A model generated the notes under the pieces. The model was not told the origin of the DNA. It saw only the letters and a list, made by a program, of their open reading frames with translations, and searched no databases. The translations under genes and the position numbers were made by a program. A stretch of 64,000 nt of DNA from Geomonas azotofigens (lineage in GTDB: Bacteria; Desulfobacterota; Desulfuromonadia; Geobacterales; Geobacteraceae), in assembly GCF_018919395.1 (NCBI RefSeq), contig NZ_JAHLME010000001.1:248001-312000 (forward strand). Reading direction: 5' to 3'. Positions 38,390 to 52,338 of the stretch are shown here, one piece after another. Positions within the stretch are counted from its first letter, which is position 1. Every line of letters begins with the position of its first letter.

Positions 38390-38569
38390 CTAGGCCGCCT
38401 TCTGGTTCAGTTCGGCGCTCCTTGCCTTCACGAGTTCCATCGCTTCCCTCATGATGTCGGAAACGCTCTTCTTGGTGGAGTCCATGATTGCTTCGAGGGT
38501 CTCACGCTCTGCGTCGCTGATCCTCATGGAAATGACATTGTACCTGGGGTTCTCTCTCATTCTGCCCAT
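38390..38569 (-). CDS. Small ribbon-helix-helix (CopG/Arc-type) DNA-binding protein
   Basis: A 59-residue protein. 'YNVISMRISDAERETLEAI' gives the beta-strand and first helix, and 'KKSVSDIMREAMELVKAR' the second helix, the standard ribbon-helix-helix layout with alternating residues on the strand. AAGGAG lies nine bases before the ATG. It probably acts as a dimeric repressor, and no toxin partner is next to it. A GTGTGCC-type palindrome at 38733-38752, shared with the promoter of the neighbouring sigma-54 regulator, lies in its upstream region. Confidence 0.75.
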   Translation of the reverse strand: MGRMRENPRYNVISMRISDAERETLEAIMDSTKKSVSDIMREAMELVKARSAELNQKAA

Positions 38570-38732
38570 CTGCTTCTTCTCCTTGTACTGCTCAAGATTG
38601 GTGACACGATGTCTACAATATTGCTATATGCGTGCCAACCTCAAAAAAGAGCAGCCCTGTTGCGTAACCCACTGTTTTCACGTATACCCTTAATTTTACG
38701 TTAGATATTTATAATCAAACTGTGTATACAAA

Positions 38733-38752
38733 GTGCGCCACTTTTGGCACAC
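38733..38752. promoter_or_regulatory. Operator-like palindrome, copy 2
   Basis: Reads GTGCGCCACTTTTGGCACAC. Its complement matches copy 1 (41164-41183) at 16 of 20 positions. It lies about 165 bases upstream of the RHH gene and just beyond the 3' end of the sigma-54 regulator. Confidence 0.5.
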
Positions 38753-38815: not shown

Positions 38816-41098
38816 TCACTCATCTTCATCCTCGCGAGCTCGAATTGTGCGTCCTTTCAACCCGTGCTTGGCCAAAAGACGATAAAACGTCCTTCTGGGG
38901 ATGTTGGCAAGTTGTGCCGCTTTTGACACATTGCCCCCGGCGTCGGCCAGGTAGCGCTGGATCAGCTTCTTCTCGACCCGCAGCACGTGCGGCTCCCGCT
39001 CCTTTTTGAAGGAGCGCAGGTCGATGACATCCTCCCCCTCGTCGGCATAGCTTTCGGCGAAGGCCAGCGGCAGGTTGCCCAGCTTGATGATGTCGTCATG
39101 GGTGAGGACCGCGGCGCGCTCGATGACGTTCTGCATCTCCCTGATGTTGCCCGGCCAGGGATACTTCACCATGGCGTTGATGGCGCGCTCCTCGATGCCG
39201 GTGATGTGCTTGTTCAGCTTGTTGCGGGCCTTCTCCAGGAAGTAGTGCGCGAGCTGCGGGATGGACTCGACCCGCTCCCGCAGCGGCGGCATGGTGATGG
39301 AGAAGACGTTGAGGCGGTAATAGAGGTCTTCGCGGAACCAGCCGTCGCGCACGCCGTCTTCCAGGGACTTGTTGGTGGCCGCGATGAGACGGACGTCGAC
39401 GCGGTGCGCCACGGTGCCCCCCACCGGCCGCACCTCGCCCAGGTCGAGCACACGCAACAACTCGGCCTGCAGCTTGGGGGTGATGTCACCGATCTCGTCC
39501 AGGAAGATGGTGCCGCCGTCGGCAGCCTCGAAAAGGCCTTTCTTCTCGGTGATGGCGCCGGTGAAGGAGCCCTTCTTGTGGCCGAACAGTTCGCTCTCCA
39601 GCAGCGAATCGGTGATAGTGGTGCAGTTCACCGTTACCAGCGGCTTGTCGTTTCTCTTGCTGTAGCGGTGGATGGCGCGCGCCGCCAGCTCCTTGCCGGT
39701 ACCGGATTCGCCGCGGATCAGGACCGTGGTCGGCGTCGGACCGACCTGCTTGATCTGGTCCAGGGCCTCGAGGGTGTTGCCGTCGCTCCCCACGATGAAC
39801 TCGTCGCCGTACTCGCGGTCCAACTCCCTCTTGGCCAGCTCGTACTTCTGGATCAGGCGCCCGCGCTCTTCTTCCAGCTGCTGCAGGTTGTGCGGCAGGC
39901 ACATCTCCAGGTCAGCGAGCCCCTGGAACACGGCGACGGCGTACTCGCGGCAGGTGCGGTAGCCGCAGGTGCGGCAGTTGAGCTCGTCCTTCTGGGTGAA
40001 CTTGTTGGTGGCTTGCAGGATCTTCTTGACGTCCCCACCCTTGGGCGTCGGGAGCTTGGCGTACTTGTCCGAGAAGGTGCGCGACAGGTTGATGTCCCAG
40101 TCCTTCTGGTAGTGCGGCGCCACGCGGTACGGGGTCTCGCCGCGGAAGTGGTTGATCACCATGTTGCGCCGGGAGAACTCGGTCAGTTCCTTGTTGCGAC
40201 CGGGGCCGCCGATGCAGCCGTCGTAGCAGAAGCGGAGATCGACGAGCTTCGGGCTGATGCGACCGGCGGCGAGGTCCTTGATGATCCCCATCACGTTCAC
40301 CTCACCCTCGGCGGTGACGATCTCGGTGTCGAGCGGGTTGGGGGTGATGCCGAAGGCCTGGAAGGAGCCCTGGGAGAGCGAGAAGACCCGCCCCATGTGG
40401 GGGGCCCTGCCGTCGAAGGGCTCCTCCTGCAGGGTCGCGAGGTCGATGCCGCGCTCCTTGAAGATCGATTCCAGCTCCCGGTAGGTGAGCAGCACGTCCA
40501 CGGCGCCCTTGGTCTGTTCGGCCTGCACCTCGAACTTCCCGGCGATGCAGGAGCTTATGTAGATGACCTTGACCTGCTCGCCCAGCACCTGCTTCAGGTA
40601 GCGCCCCATGGCGACCATGTGGGTGACCACGCCGACCAGGTTCTCGATCAACTGCGGGTAGTGCCGCTCCACGAGATCGACCACGGCCGGACAGTGGGAA
40701 GAGATCAGCGGCAGCTGCGCCTTCTCGATGGCGTTTCGGTACTCGCCGGCGATCAGTTCCACGCCGCGGGCCCCCTCGTGCACCTCTGCGAAACCGAGTT
40801 GGTGCAGACCGGCGGAAAGCTGACCGGGGGAGCAGTTGTGGAAGAAGGCGGGAAAGGAGCAGCCCAGGACGGCGACCACGGGGTCACCGGAGGTGAGCAG
40901 CGCCTCGGTCACCACCACGTTGTCCGAGATGACCTTGGCGTGCTGGGGGCAGTTGCTCAGGCAGTTGCCGCAGCCGATGCAGCGCTCGAAGATGATCTCG
41001 GTGTAGCTCTTCTCCACCTTGATCGCCTTGACCGGGCAACTGCGCACGCAGGAATAGCATTTTCGGCATTGGTCGGTAATGGTTACGATAGGATACAT
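38816..41098 (-). CDS. Sigma-54 activator with [FeFe]-hydrogenase-like sensory domain
   Basis: A 760-residue protein. Domains in order: two ferredoxin clusters (C11...C21, C40...C50), a [FeFe]-hydrogenase large-subunit-like domain (about 70-350), a CX2CX4C...C iron-sulfur segment (C375, C378, C383, C400), a coiled linker, an AAA+ domain (Walker A GESGTGKE at 463-470, GSFTGA loop, 'GTIFLDEIGDI') and a Fis-type HTH ('GGNVSKAAQLANIPRRTFYR'). Equivalents of the four H-cluster cysteine ligands appear kept: C136 (SSHCP), C184 (SSCIAGKFE), C291 and C295 (CYDGC). The proton-relay cysteine is replaced by H135. This points to a redox or H2 sensor rather than an enzyme. ATG 41098 has GAGGA upstream. Confidence 0.85.
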   Translation of the reverse strand: MYPIVTITDQCRKCYSCVRSCPVKAIKVEKSYTEIIFERCIGCGNCLSNCPQHAKVISDNVVVTEALLTSGDPVVAVLGCSFPAFFHNCSPGQLSAGLHQLGFAEVHEGARGVELIAGEYRNAIEKAQLPLISSHCPAVVDLVERHYPQLIENLVGVVTHMVAMGRYLKQVLGEQVKVIYISSCIAGKFEVQAEQTKGAVDVLLTYRELESIFKERGIDLATLQEEPFDGRAPHMGRVFSLSQGSFQAFGITPNPLDTEIVTAEGEVNVMGIIKDLAAGRISPKLVDLRFCYDGCIGGPGRNKELTEFSRRNMVINHFRGETPYRVAPHYQKDWDINLSRTFSDKYAKLPTPKGGDVKKILQATNKFTQKDELNCRTCGYRTCREYAVAVFQGLADLEMCLPHNLQQLEEERGRLIQKYELAKRELDREYGDEFIVGSDGNTLEALDQIKQVGPTPTTVLIRGESGTGKELAARAIHRYSKRNDKPLVTVNCTTITDSLLESELFGHKKGSFTGAITEKKGLFEAADGGTIFLDEIGDITPKLQAELLRVLDLGEVRPVGGTVAHRVDVRLIAATNKSLEDGVRDGWFREDLYYRLNVFSITMPPLRERVESIPQLAHYFLEKARNKLNKHITGIEERAINAMVKYPWPGNIREMQNVIERAAVLTHDDIIKLGNLPLAFAESYADEGEDVIDLRSFKKEREPHVLRVEKKLIQRYLADAGGNVSKAAQLANIPRRTFYRLLAKHGLKGRTIRAREDEDE

Positions 41099-41139: not shown

Positions 41140-41184
41140 GGGATTGTATAGGAATCGGAAAAAGTGTGCAACAGTTGGCACACT
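41140..41184 (-). promoter_or_regulatory. Promoter of the hydrogenase-like sigma-54 regulator with overlapping operator
   Basis: On the minus strand TTGCAC is followed by a 17-base spacer and TACAAT (inside TATACAAT). A palindrome AGTGTGC-N8-GCACACT (41163-41184) covers the -35 box, a position that suggests repression, probably autoregulation or control by a neighbour. Confidence 0.65.
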
Positions 41185-41201: not shown

Positions 41202-41279
41202 AAAAAAAACCCTAGCGACTAGGAGGGCAAGTCGGCTAGGGGAAGGAGGATCCTACGATCCTCCGCAACTCTTATCTAT
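41202..41279 (-). ncRNA. Candidate small RNA with C-rich loop and intrinsic terminator
   Basis: The minus strand has a strong orphan promoter, TTGCAG (41309-41314), 17-base spacer, TATAAT (41286-41291). About 78 nt downstream of the predicted start there is a perfect terminator: CCCTAG-CGACT paired with AGTCG-CTAGGG (41210-41241), then T8. A first hairpin, GGAGGATC/GATCCTCC (41246-41265), precedes it. The terminator loop exposes TGCCCTCCT, which can pair with Shine-Dalgarno sequences. There is no open frame of note. Confidence 0.6.
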
Positions 41280-41410
41280 GAACACATTATACTGAGGCGT
41301 TCAAAAGACTGCAAGAACTTAACTGCAATTAATCAAAGAACTCTTTTTACGAGCAACCTCATGAGCTCGCCAGGCGCTGACTTTCATAAGAAAAAGAGGC
41401 GTTTGGCGCA

Positions 41411-43542: not shown

Positions 43543-44403
43543 CTAGCGCTTCATGGCTTCTACCATTTCGCGGCGGGCTTCGCCGATGGTCAAGGGGAGA
43601 CGGGTGAAGGGAAGTCCCTCCTCGTGCTTCAACTGGTAGATCAGTTCCGCGATGTGGGGGAGGCGCAGTTTGACGTTGGCCAACTCCTCGGGGGCGGTGA
43701 AGACATCTTCGGGGGCGCCGCCGCGCACCAGGCGCCCCTTGCTCAGGATATGGAGCTGGTGCAGGAAGATGGGGACCAGGTCCACGCTGTGGGTGGCCAT
43801 GACGATGGTGACGCCGTGATCCCGGTTCAACCGGGTCAGAAGTTCCATCATCCGGTACTCGCCCATCGGGTCCAGCCCGGCGGTCGGCTCGTCCAGGAGC
43901 AGGATCTCGTGCCCCATGGCCAACAGGCCGGCGATGCAGACCCGCTTCTTCTGGCCGTAGCTCAGGTTGTGGATCCCCTTGGCGGCGAACTCGGACATAT
44001 CGACGCTCGCCAGCGCCGCTTCGACGCGACTTTTCACCTCGGGCTCGGCACACCCCATGTTGCGCGGACCGAAGGCGGCGTCCTCGAAGACGTTGCTGGC
44101 GAAGAGCTGGTCGTCCGGATTCTGGAACACGAGCCCGACCTTGCGGTAGATGTCGCGCGGGTGCAGGCGGAGCACGTTGTCGCCGTCCAGGAGTACCTCG
44201 CCGCGATACCCCTTGATCAGGCCGTCCATGATCTTGAGCAGCGTCGTCTTACCGGAACCGTTGGAACCGAGGATGCCGGCGAACTCGCCCCGGGCGATCT
44301 TGAGGTCGAGGTCCGCCAGCGCGACGGTACCGTCGGGATACTGGTAACTTTCCAGCTTTACCGAAATTCTGCTCTGATCCACGCAGGCTTCCTTTGTTCT
44401 CAT
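43543..44403 (-). CDS. cbiO: Cobalt ECF transporter ATPase
   Basis: A 286-residue ABC ATPase energising cobalt uptake. Walker A is 'GSNGSGKTTLL', the Q-loop 'VFQNPDDQLFASNV' is typical of ECF ATPases, the signature is 'LSYGQKKRV', and Walker B is 'EILLLDEPTAGLD'. It overlaps the cbiQ stop by four bases (ATGA). It is the last gene of the B12-riboswitch operon. Confidence 0.93.
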   Translation of the reverse strand: MRTKEACVDQSRISVKLESYQYPDGTVALADLDLKIARGEFAGILGSNGSGKTTLLKIMDGLIKGYRGEVLLDGDNVLRLHPRDIYRKVGLVFQNPDDQLFASNVFEDAAFGPRNMGCAEPEVKSRVEAALASVDMSEFAAKGIHNLSYGQKKRVCIAGLLAMGHEILLLDEPTAGLDPMGEYRMMELLTRLNRDHGVTIVMATHSVDLVPIFLHQLHILSKGRLVRGGAPEDVFTAPEELANVKLRLPHIAELIYQLKHEEGLPFTRLPLTIGEARREMVEAMKR

Positions 44404-45158
44404 AATGCCCTGATGGCGGCCATGGCGCCGACGAAGAGGAGCGCCGAGCCGACCTCAACCGCCCGCAGCGGCCGGTGCACGGAGGCGGGCATGACGCCGT
44501 CATAGCCGCGCTGCACCATCGCGGTGGTGATGCTCTGGCTGTTGTCGAAGGCCTTTATCACCAGTACGCCCGCCAGGGTTCCGAGCGAGGAGAGCGCACG
44601 CCGGCAACCGACGTAGCCGAGGCGGTTCTTCTGGGCGTTATAGACCACCTGGGCATCCTCAAGGAGCAGGAACAGGTAACGCCAGGCGAAGAGCGCGACG
44701 TCCACCAGCACTTGCGGCACCCTGAGCCAGGAGAGCGCGGCCATCAGTTCGGTGAAGGGGGTGGAGAAGCCGACCACGGCGAGCAGGGAGACCCCGCCCA
44801 GGATGCGCCCGGCGATAAGGAGCCCCGCCGCGAGACCATCACGGTGCCCGATCAACTCCCATCCGCCCAGGCCGATGCTGAACAGGGGAATGCTTCCGGA
44901 GAAGAAGGTTTTCAGCGCCAGCACCATGACCGCGATGAAGACTGGCTCGGAGAAACGCAGCGCGAGGATGCGCACCGGCGTACCGAGGTGCCGACAGAGG
45001 GCGAGCCCGAGCGCCGCAACTGCCAGGGGAAAGGCGATCCCCTGCGAGCTCAGCACCATGACCAGAAGGGCGAGTGCACTCACCAGCTTCACCCGCGCAT
45101 CGACCGAGGCGAGAGGATGAGCCGCATGGTGGCGGTATGCGTTGAAGTGATGGTGCAT
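44400..45158 (-). CDS. cbiQ: Cobalt ECF transporter transmembrane subunit
   Basis: A 252-residue protein with about five to six membrane helices and the histidine-rich start 'MHHHFNAYRHHAAHPLAS'. The coupling helices that contact CbiO are seen in 'ALSWLRVPQVLVDVALFAWR' and 'AMVQRGYDG'. The start ATG overlaps the preceding stop by one base (TGATG). A longer frame upstream runs out of frame through the cbiN-like gene and is not real. Confidence 0.92.
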   Translation of the reverse strand: MHHHFNAYRHHAAHPLASVDARVKLVSALALLVMVLSSQGIAFPLAVAALGLALCRHLGTPVRILALRFSEPVFIAVMVLALKTFFSGSIPLFSIGLGGWELIGHRDGLAAGLLIAGRILGGVSLLAVVGFSTPFTELMAALSWLRVPQVLVDVALFAWRYLFLLLEDAQVVYNAQKNRLGYVGCRRALSSLGTLAGVLVIKAFDNSQSITTAMVQRGYDGVMPASVHRPLRAVEVGSALLFVGAMAAIRAL

Positions 45159-45451
45159 CAACCTTCCTTGTGGTCCTTCCCGGTCAACTGGCGCCAATAA
45201 TACCCGGCGAGGAAGCCGCCGATGACGCCGGCACCCAGGAAAGCGAACAGGAGCAGATCGCCGGAACCGAGATCGATAATCGGCGCCTTGGCCTCCCGCC
45301 CGTGCTCCTTGGCGATCTTCTCCACCACGGCCTCGTCCACCCCCTGGTATGACTTCGGGGCCAGGGAGAAGAAGTAAAAGGCGAACAGCAGCGTCGGCAG
45401 CATTACCGTGTGTAGCAGCAGTACTTTCCACCTGCGTTTTCTATCAGGCAT
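45158..45451 (-). CDS. CbiN-like PDGLE-domain membrane protein
   Basis: A 97-residue protein with two membrane helices (about 9-30 and 65-88) flanking 'YQGVDEAVVEKIAKEHGRE'. The closing 'LLLFAFLGAGVIGGFLAGYYW' matches the PDGLE domain, which takes the place of CbiN in many cobalt/nickel ECF systems. It overlaps cbiM by eight bases and cbiQ by one. It should help the substrate subunit load metal. Confidence 0.85.
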   Translation of the reverse strand: MPDRKRRWKVLLLHTVMLPTLLFAFYFFSLAPKSYQGVDEAVVEKIAKEHGREAKAPIIDLGSGDLLLFAFLGAGVIGGFLAGYYWRQLTGKDHKEG

Positions 45452-46181
45452 TGCCGGCAGCCTCCTTTTCCGTGATGACCCTCATCTTCACGAGCAGGTC
45501 CGGACGCTTGCGGTACAAGAGCGTGACCATTCCCGCGGTGATGACCCCTTCCAGGATGCCCAAGGGCAGCTGGGTTGGAAGAAACGCCAGCACTATTTTC
45601 ACGAACAGCGGCCACAGCGGCGACTCCCCCCGGATGCCGAGGGCAAGCAGCAGCGACGTGGTGGCGTAGGTGGCCCAGTCTGCCACAAGCCCGGCGATAA
45701 ATCCAGCAACCGCCAAGCTCCCGCCTACTTTTCGCAACGCGCGGAAGGCGAACCAGCCGGCGAAGGAGCCGACCACCCCCATGGAGAGGGTGTTGGCACC
45801 CAGCGTCGATAGGCCGCCGTGGGCCAGGAACAGCGCCTGGATCAGGAGCGAGACCGCCGCGATGATCACGCTGACCAGCGGCCCCACCAGTATGGCGGAC
45901 ACCCCGGTGCCGCAGGGATGCGAGCAGGTCCCGGCGGTCGGCACCGGGATCGGCATGCAGGAGATAATGAAGACCACGGCGGTGAGCAGCCCGACCAGCG
46001 GCTTCATGGAGAGGTCCTCCCGCGCCAGGGCGTTCAACTGCCGGATGCCCATGGCCAAAAACGGCACCAGCACCAGGAACCAGGCGAGCGCCCACGGGAA
46101 GGGAAGGATCCCTTCGGAGATGTGCATGGCGAAGGCGGGGGAGGCGGAAAACAGACAGACAAGCGCGACCAAAGGCACCAT
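45444..46181 (-). CDS. cbiM: Cobalt transporter substrate-binding membrane subunit
   Basis: A 245-residue protein. A signal peptide (18 residues, SASPAFA) is followed by MHISEGILP, the mature N-terminus whose Met-His supplies metal ligands in CbiM/NikM. 'VPTAGTCSHPCGTGVSAILVG' and 'GGLSTLGANTLSMGVVGSFAG' are further family blocks. The neighbours (cob/cbi genes and B12 riboswitch) favour cobalt over nickel. The start at 46181 is set by the signal peptide and GGGAGCAGGGA upstream. Confidence 0.92.
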   Translation of the reverse strand: MVPLVALVCLFSASPAFAMHISEGILPFPWALAWFLVLVPFLAMGIRQLNALAREDLSMKPLVGLLTAVVFIISCMPIPVPTAGTCSHPCGTGVSAILVGPLVSVIIAAVSLLIQALFLAHGGLSTLGANTLSMGVVGSFAGWFAFRALRKVGGSLAVAGFIAGLVADWATYATTSLLLALGIRGESPLWPLFVKIVLAFLPTQLPLGILEGVITAGMVTLLYRKRPDLLVKMRVITEKEAAGNA

Positions 46182-52059: not shown

Positions 52060-52127
52060 CAAAAACGCACTACAGGTGCGGTTCCGGCTTTAGCCCCTCT
52101 GCCACGGAGGTTCCAACAAGCTTCTCA

Positions 52128-52286
52128 TCCTGGCAGGTTTCCTGACTCACGGGTCGTCTTACTCGCCGCGCCTTCCCGATGCGATCAGTGGCGTTGTTGC
52201 GGCTTTCATCTCCGTTCACAGTTGCGGGACAGCGAGGGATTCACACCCTCTTCCCTTTTAACCCCTCTCGGGGCACCAAGACGAAC
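52128..52286 (-). promoter_or_regulatory. Cobalamin riboswitch
   Basis: The minus strand contains the B12 box AGTCAGGAAACCTGCCA (52131-52147) and, upstream, 'GGTGCCCC', 'GAATCCCTCGCTGTCCCGCA' and 'CAACTGTGAACGG', which match the conserved core of adenosylcobalamin riboswitches. It lies directly upstream of cobU and should shut off the whole operon when B12 is plentiful. Confidence 0.95.
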
Positions 52287-52338
52287 GTCTATATATTTTT
52301 TACAGCGACGTGTTTACTAACAGACGCCGCGGTGAAAG

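Follow-up and report, generated by a model that had tools for sequence, protein, structure and literature searches.

A hydrogenase-derived sigma-54 activator in Geomonas azotofigens as a candidate redox sensor for hgtR

Sensory [FeFe]-hydrogenases of groups C and D, such as TmHydS and TamHydS, are among the closest described relatives of the protein considered here, a hydrogenase-derived sigma-54 activator (labeled S54) encoded at 38816..41098 on the minus strand of a 64,000-nucleotide stretch of Geomonas azotofigens DNA (NCBI RefSeq assembly GCF_018919395.1, contig NZ_JAHLME010000001.1, positions 248,001 to 312,000). This whole stretch is referred to as the window, and coordinates given without a locus name are those of the window. 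Like TmHydS and TamHydS, S54 combines two ferredoxin clusters, the hydrogenase (H) domain, and a C-terminal Cx2Cx4Cx16C cluster, and in all of them the relay cysteine and the framing methionines are altered. TmHydS and TamHydS carry the H-cluster, and group C adds a PAS domain, whereas S54 lacks the lysine of the di-iron site, has arginine at the M497 position, occurs mostly without the maturases, and possesses its own sigma-54 AAA+ domain and helix-turn-helix (HTH) domain. In the passages of the cited papers that were covered, to which all statements from the literature in this text are limited, TmHydS and TamHydS are active enzymes that also differ at C299, M353, and M497 (numbering as in PMC8163306). 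C299 is absent also in groups C and D, and M497 is not replaced by arginine in the sensory enzymes named there (PMC8163306).

A second group of relatives consists of sensors fused to a histidine kinase (loci L186, L188, L190-L194, and L196-L198), which share the same four cluster sites and 36-41% identity over the sensor and form the sister clade of S54 for 11 of 12 rows. Unlike S54, they have a histidine kinase as output (judged by eye), keep the lysine in 12/12, and come from genomes with HydF in 10 of the 12 cases; a HydA-like gene lies on the same fetched stretch in 6/12. As counted here, the sister type also holds L195, which ends with its contig, and L189, which has a PAS-like end. Furthermore, sigma-54 activators of Clostridiales contain Fer4, Fe_hyd_lg_C, and FeS in their regulatory regions, as S54 does (PMC6615313); in the passages covered they are listed only, with no residues, targets, or maturases, and are likened to S54 by Pfam domains alone. 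The initial annotation of this locus, made from the sequence alone, could not tell whether relatives had been described. The domain combination had already been listed, while a limited literature search with few full texts yielded no account of the di-iron loss, the palindrome, or the S54-hgtR link presented below.

On the target side, the closest described system is the HgtR circuit of Geobacter. In G. sulfurreducens, GSU3364 is hgtR, a gene that is reportedly induced by H2 and whose product represses gltA (PMC7894505), with nuoA and atpG as further named targets (PMC7726332). The role ascribed to Geobacter HgtR is that of a repressor shutting off acetate oxidation when the cells live on H2. 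Leang and others (PMC2725144) reported an activator gene upstream of GSU3364 and a predicted RpoN promoter at GSU3364. The S54 locus matches this circuit in gene place, sigma-54 promoter, and the likely targets gltA and nuoA. In the passages covered, neither the activator nor its sensor type is described, and no settled account is given of the way Geobacter perceives H2 or surplus electrons when it induces HgtR.

We consider it fairly probable that S54 is a one-component activator with a hydrogenase-derived redox sensor that has no di-iron site, and that it switches on hgtR. S54 would then be a named candidate sensor for hgtR induction, with a DNA site and a mechanism class, and, judged by residues and maturases, a clear example of how a hydrogenase scaffold came to serve regulation once its di-iron site was gone. 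The parts of the protein are as follows.

38816..41098, minus strand: S54 coding sequence, 760 amino acids, with the ATG at 41098
40928..41098, minus strand: two [4Fe-4S] ferredoxin motifs, residues 1-57 (Pfam Fer4 at about 1-55)
40202..40879, minus strand: [FeFe]-hydrogenase-like domain PF02906, residues 74-299 (Pfam E 3.6e-48)
39893..39982, minus strand: PF04060 Fe-S domain, residues 373-402, Cys-x2-Cys-x4-Cys-x16-Cys (Pfam E 1.2e-10)
39038..39796, minus strand: sigma-54 AAA+ domain and lid, residues 435-687, with a GSFTGA loop and Walker A
38867..38977, minus strand: Fis-type HTH_8 DNA-binding domain, residues 708-744 (Pfam)

The open reading frame (ORF) and the Pfam domains agree with the fusion of ferredoxin, hydrogenase-like, Fe-S, AAA+, and Fis-type parts that the initial annotation had described. 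Within the AAA+ part, Pfam places Sigma54_activat at 435-601 (E 1.1e-66) and the AAA lid at 607-687. S54 has the hallmarks of a sigma-54 enhancer-binding protein, namely an AAA+ domain with Walker A, a GAFTGA-type loop, and a Fis-type HTH, and its module order (two Fer4 motifs, H domain, C-terminal [4Fe-4S] cluster) is that of sensory groups C and D. Across the 111 non-redundant loci used for neighborhood counts, shortened ORFs included, the loop reads GAFTGA in 56, GSFTGA in 51, and neither in 4. No PAS, kinase, or phosphatase family was found at E 0.001 in a Pfam scan of the protein, in agreement with the initial annotation. AlphaFold modeled residues 1-430 with a mean predicted local distance difference test (pLDDT) of 92.7 and a predicted template modeling score (pTM) of 0.90, and in the predicted structure a long helix (401-429) follows the PF04060 domain and leads toward the AAA+ domain. 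The best 50 solved Protein Data Bank folds listed for the sensor are all [FeFe]-hydrogenases or enzymes containing one. S54 is the only PF02906 match in its own genome, and its sensor is 97% identical to the Geomonas anaerohicana counterpart. In a closely related one-contig genome (L045, 8804-10048), the activator ORF stops early (414 amino acids) and hgtR is still present.

A profile alignment of S54 with a CpI variant and other hydrogenases laid ISSHCPAVV on TSCCPGWV, SSCIAGKFE on MPCTSKKFE, and RFC..GCIGG on MACHGGCVNGG. We take the S54 ligand positions to be C300, C355, C499, and C503 in CpI numbers, and K358 to be the lysine of CpI that holds the di-iron site.

40694-40696, minus strand: codon of H135, at the relay cysteine position C299
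40691-40693, minus strand: codon of C136, cubane ligand position C300
40547-40549, minus strand: codon of C184, cubane ligand position C355
40538-40540, minus strand: codon of G187, at the K358 position, where the lysine is lost
40232-40234, minus strand: codon of R289, M497 position
40226-40228, minus strand: codon of C291, cubane ligand position C499
40214-40216, minus strand: codon of C295, cubane ligand position C503

Sensors were compared among 80 loci hand-picked from a survey of the order and 80 profile-found loci, two sets that overlap. Sorted by BLAST score, 169 ORFs fell into five groups: a sigma-54 type with 134 (112 after removal of identical sensors), a kinase or related type with 12, a HydS-like one with 9, a fourth type with 3, and a HydA-like one with 11. 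The cubane cysteines C136, C184, C291, and C295 are each found in 112/112 non-redundant S54 relatives, and their presence is therefore not due to chance. Together with the CpI alignment and the AlphaFold model, these counts bear out the earlier placement of the four cysteines at the H-cluster ligand positions and of H135 at the relay position. The eight ferredoxin cysteines are kept in 110-112 of the 112 relatives, with the shortfall being unreadable residues.

The di-iron site presents a different picture from the cubane ligands. The H135 column holds histidine in 111 and glutamine in 1 of the 112 relatives. At the K358 position, the sigma-54 type has alanine (65), glycine (45), cysteine (1), or serine (1) and in 0/112 lysine, which is present in all 35 rows of the other groups (12/12, 9/9, 3/3, and 11/11). 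The M497 column is arginine in 112/112, and the M353 column (S182 in S54) is serine in 111 and cysteine in 1. Further fixed positions are H146 and G79 (112/112 each), and C80 is found in 94/112. S54 proteins from three HydF-bearing genomes are also without the lysine and have arginine at the M497 position. As far as sequence can tell, the loss of the lysine and the gain of the arginine are what separates S54 from the sensory hydrogenases. With these residue-level markers parting the two, annotation of S54 as a hydrogenase or an H2 sensor would mislead. Two other observations concern the same columns. Three PF02906 sensors with a C-terminal half that appears chemoreceptor-like by eye (L101 8313-10193, L108 8561-10444, and L110 6957-8840) keep the di-iron lysine, and the C136 (C300) column is serine (TSCSPGW) in 5 of the 11 HydA-like rows (L186 and L190-L193).

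The maturases follow the same division. In the genome of the window, rated 100% complete, neither HydF (best match 85.6 bits, covering the GTPase part only, against a cut-off of 325.55) nor HydG was found in a search of which HydE was not part. Among 141 genomes of the order, PF02906 is present in 131 and HydF in 14; S54 was counted in 120 of these genomes from open-frame length and fetched loci, including G139, which is cut at a contig edge, and the incomplete G016, G049, and G137. HydF is found in 3/120 genomes with S54 versus 11/21 others (Fisher p 1.4e-8, uncorrected for kinship), and the 11 HydF genomes without S54 fall in only three genera. Outside the order, among 30 genomes chosen from named loci, HydF is present in 0/18 with S54 versus 10/12 with the sister type. 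A tree of 66 rows, in which 31 of the 112 sigma-54 rows were used (30 random draws and the window's own), recovered a single S54 clade (100/100) adjoining 11 of the 12 sister-type rows (87/82), although the program warned of long branches.

Collectively, these results suggested that the S54 sensor is a maturase-free Fe-S sensor descended from a HydS-type sensory [FeFe]-hydrogenase, and a plain Fe-S redox sensor appears to be the better reading compared to one with an H-cluster. A complete H-cluster in S54, judged indirectly from residues and maturases, is not supported. The initial annotation had proposed a sensory H-cluster and had named homologues widespread in genomes without maturases as the outcome that would speak against it; this is what was found, and two di-iron-site positions are in addition consistently substituted, unlike in the sister sensors.

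The probable target lies directly downstream of S54, and the elements around it are the following.

38734..38751, minus strand: candidate upstream activator site TGTGCCAAAAGTGGCGCA of the hgtR promoter, 113 nucleotides from the -24 element
38622..38638, minus strand: sigma-54 -24/-12 box TTGGCACGCATATAGCA, from a box scan
38390..38569, minus strand: small ribbon-helix-helix (RHH)-like gene read as hgtR, 59 amino acids from the ATG at 38569
41165..41182, no strand: second palindrome copy, upstream of S54, which may serve autoregulation
38682..38687, no strand: GTATAC box, putative HgtR operator, which may serve autoregulation
38724..38729, no strand: GTATAC box, putative HgtR operator, likewise

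Gene neighbors of S54 differ between families with one exception, the small RHH-like gene, which is found directly downstream on the same strand in 85/111 loci. In all 85 of these loci, the gap contains a -24/-12 box with a score of 22.0 or more out of 25.3 (mean 23.5), compared to a mean of 16.5 and a 99th percentile of 20.8 after shuffling. The palindrome TGTGCC-N6-GGCACA, with at most two mismatches, precedes the box in 82 of the 85 hgtR-like promoters versus 0.2% of simple letter shuffles, at 100-104 or 110-116 nucleotides from the -24 element. An activator site is thus present upstream of the -24/-12 promoter, if only as a candidate. The palindrome at the same stringency is also found near the start of S54 itself in 106/111 loci (shuffled 1.3%; 250 nucleotides before to 110 nucleotides after the ORF start), which suggests that S54 may regulate its own gene.

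Within the genome of the window, 15 loci were read for the 17 places that carry the palindrome (two C14 places have no locus), and the S54-hgtR gap is alone among them in having the palindrome and a strong box (23.8) outside coding sequence. A stretch resembling the palindrome at 38913-38930 lies within the HTH-coding sequence, where we attribute it to chance. A broad direct S54 regulon is not supported, given a single intergenic palindrome with a strong box among the 15 loci. The divergent transglutaminase-like gene was rejected as a target, as no sigma-54 box was seen before it by eye; its nearest best box (21.0) lies in its coding sequence, and this neighbor changes between families.

By analogy with the Geobacter circuit, the downstream RHH-like gene is probably hgtR, as it adjoins a sigma-54 activator and has an RpoN promoter. 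An hgtR-like gene is present in 136/141 genomes of the order, including all 120 with S54. In the genome of the window, GTATAC occurs three times within 34 nucleotides before gltA, and a search for GTATAC pairs returned 8 places versus 3 in the control. Two of these overlap at gltA; a nuoA-type gene (Pfam Oxidored_q4), icd (monomeric isocitrate dehydrogenase), and an aminotransferase gene have one each before them, and three are unassigned. In several HydF genera and in family f2 (L222-L232), no activator is found near hgtR and the sigma-54 box of hgtR is kept; another activator must therefore serve hgtR there.

These observations are consistent with the following mechanism. The sensor would have kept its wiring, that is, the two ferredoxin clusters, the [4Fe-4S]H cubane, and the C-terminal [4Fe-4S] cluster, and would have lost the di-iron site made by HydEFG. 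As low-potential electrons build up, for example during growth on H2 via [NiFe]-hydrogenases, the clusters would be reduced, and the change would run via the C-terminal cluster and the long helix to the AAA+ ring. S54 at TGTGCC-N6-GGCACA would then turn on hgtR, and HgtR would repress gltA, icd, and nuoA via GTATAC boxes, so that acetate oxidation is turned off. Reduction of the chain is the simplest signal because the target is reportedly H2-induced and only redox clusters remain. [NiFe]-hydrogenases are found in 108/120 S54 genomes of the order, and a path from H2 to sigma-54 is plausible, though it would be an indirect one via low-potential electrons. From the earlier proposal of a one-protein path from H2 or redox state to sigma-54 transcription, the single protein survives, while the H-cluster does not; the connection to H2 physiology through the hgtR-like target promoter had not been foreseen there.

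Several points weigh against reading S54 as a redox-driven switch for hgtR. First, the changes at C299 and at M353/M497 alone are no proof of di-iron loss, as they are seen in sensory enzymes too; the argument leans on the lysine, the arginine, and the maturases. Second, these very hgtR promoters were the source of the palindrome pattern, so that the 82/85 is partly circular; allowing one mismatch at most, it shows no enrichment across the genome (17 places versus 14 in the control, 3 of the 17 at the S54 locus), and at L210 it is found with a box of 22.5 at 118 nucleotides inside the start of a sensor-kinase-like ORF. Third, the case for equating the gene with G. sulfurreducens HgtR is built on gene order, promoter, and target genes and not on sequence, and the RHH match of 14.7 bits is below the Pfam threshold of 20.5 (RHH_1). 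Fourth, 16 genomes of the order without S54 also carry an hgtR-like gene, and another activator can therefore drive hgtR; among 14 of these 16 promoters that were read, the box is kept in 13 and the palindrome (at most two mismatches) in 3, the exception without a box being G071, which has a weaker hgtR-like match. Fifth, the proteomes of PMC7894505 did not reveal HgtR, as far as the passages covered go, and Co(II) stress likewise raises HgtR in G. sulfurreducens (PMC7726332), a response that would suit a damage sensor as well. Sixth, no [NiFe]-hydrogenase was found in 12/120 S54 genomes of the order, of which 4 are 98% complete or more, and H2 therefore cannot be the only input. Finally, we infer both the signal sensed by S54 and, from sequence, the role of GTATAC as the HgtR operator, which none of the passages covered mentions.

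Compared to this reading, three alternatives fare less well. The main rival, which we regard as unlikely, is that the di-iron pocket, once emptied, now serves as a new site for a ligand or metal (H135, R289, often C80, and H146) and reports a small molecule, a gas, or a metal. Conservation of the replacement residues equals that of the cluster ligands (R289, H146, and G79 in 112/112), and drift would be expected in a vestigial pocket; however, these residues may merely stabilize a bare cubane, the shared pocket is taken from the alignment to hydrogenases with H146 only presumed to belong to it, and no ligand is known. Less likely still, S54 could be an oxidant or metal-stress sensor, in which loss of or damage to the clusters, not their reduction, alters activity as in other Fe-S regulators. 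The four predicted [4Fe-4S] sites and the rise of hgtR under Co(II) stress (PMC7726332) would suit such a sensor, but growth on H2, which reportedly induces hgtR (PMC7894505), is not an oxidative condition, and the GTATAC pairs that could be assigned stand before gltA, nuoA, icd, and an aminotransferase gene. That S54 is a true H2 sensor, in which the H domain holds a complete H-cluster with its di-iron site and the AAA+ domain is switched directly by bound H2, is very improbable: the four cubane ligands and the [FeFe]-hydrogenase fold are kept, the relay cysteine and both methionines are altered in sensory hydrogenases too (PMC8163306), and the target gene is reportedly H2-induced (PMC7894505), but HydF and HydG were not found in its own genome, HydF is present in only 3/120 S54 genomes of the order, the lysine is lost and the arginine gained even in the three HydF genomes, and the sister sensors keep the lysine and mostly come from genomes with HydF.

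The preferred reading, a redox-responsive activator acting from the palindrome, also bears on loci with another effector. In many families of the class outside Geobacterales, the palindrome and box after S54 precede what would be transcribed as a non-coding stretch of about 100 nucleotides, not hgtR. This small-RNA-like element is closed by a terminator hairpin whose loop is rich in C and U in 17/17 loci read (among L164-L185, including L168 8491-8610), 5 of the 10 pairs of its consensus are altered at both partners in one sequence or more, and no Rfam match was obtained in the 5 loci searched. A model built from the 17 loci gave one match in each of 89/277 genomes of the class under strict search filters, all of them outside the order (89/136, with 141 of the 277 in the order by handle numbers). 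At the 30 best element loci, which include genomes from which the model was built, the end of S54 lies just upstream and the palindrome (at most two mismatches) and box are found in 30/30. As the element search was independent of S54, its outcome favors the view that S54 and its site belong together. From its loop, one might guess that the element is an anti-Shine-Dalgarno small RNA.

A bolder proposal, which we hold to be possible although on the doubtful side, is that Desulfuromonadia turned a hydrogenase into a maturase-independent sensor of electron pressure, with the di-iron pocket rebuilt (His135, Arg289, often Cys80) as the sensing site. One sensor and palindrome would drive HgtR in Geobacterales and, in sister families, a conserved small RNA of the anti-Shine-Dalgarno type, with either effector curbing central oxidation at electron excess. 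Such a swap of effectors, protein repressor versus small RNA, under one conserved promoter type would be a useful evolutionary case.

The leader of S54 holds a further RNA element, a match to a family listed as a candidate cis-regulatory RNA (PMC2864571 Table 1).

41203..41293, minus strand: atoC RNA (RF01733) in the S54 leader, 73.1 bits versus a gathering score of 50

This RNA was also found in 3 of 7 other loci searched (L041, L049, and L071), and not in L048, L063, L083, and L115 at the gathering score. Elsewhere in the window, a cobalamin riboswitch is found at 52115-52295 on the minus strand. The genes at 43543-46172 on the same strand, some 6 kb from the riboswitch, resemble what we take to be a cobalt transport set.

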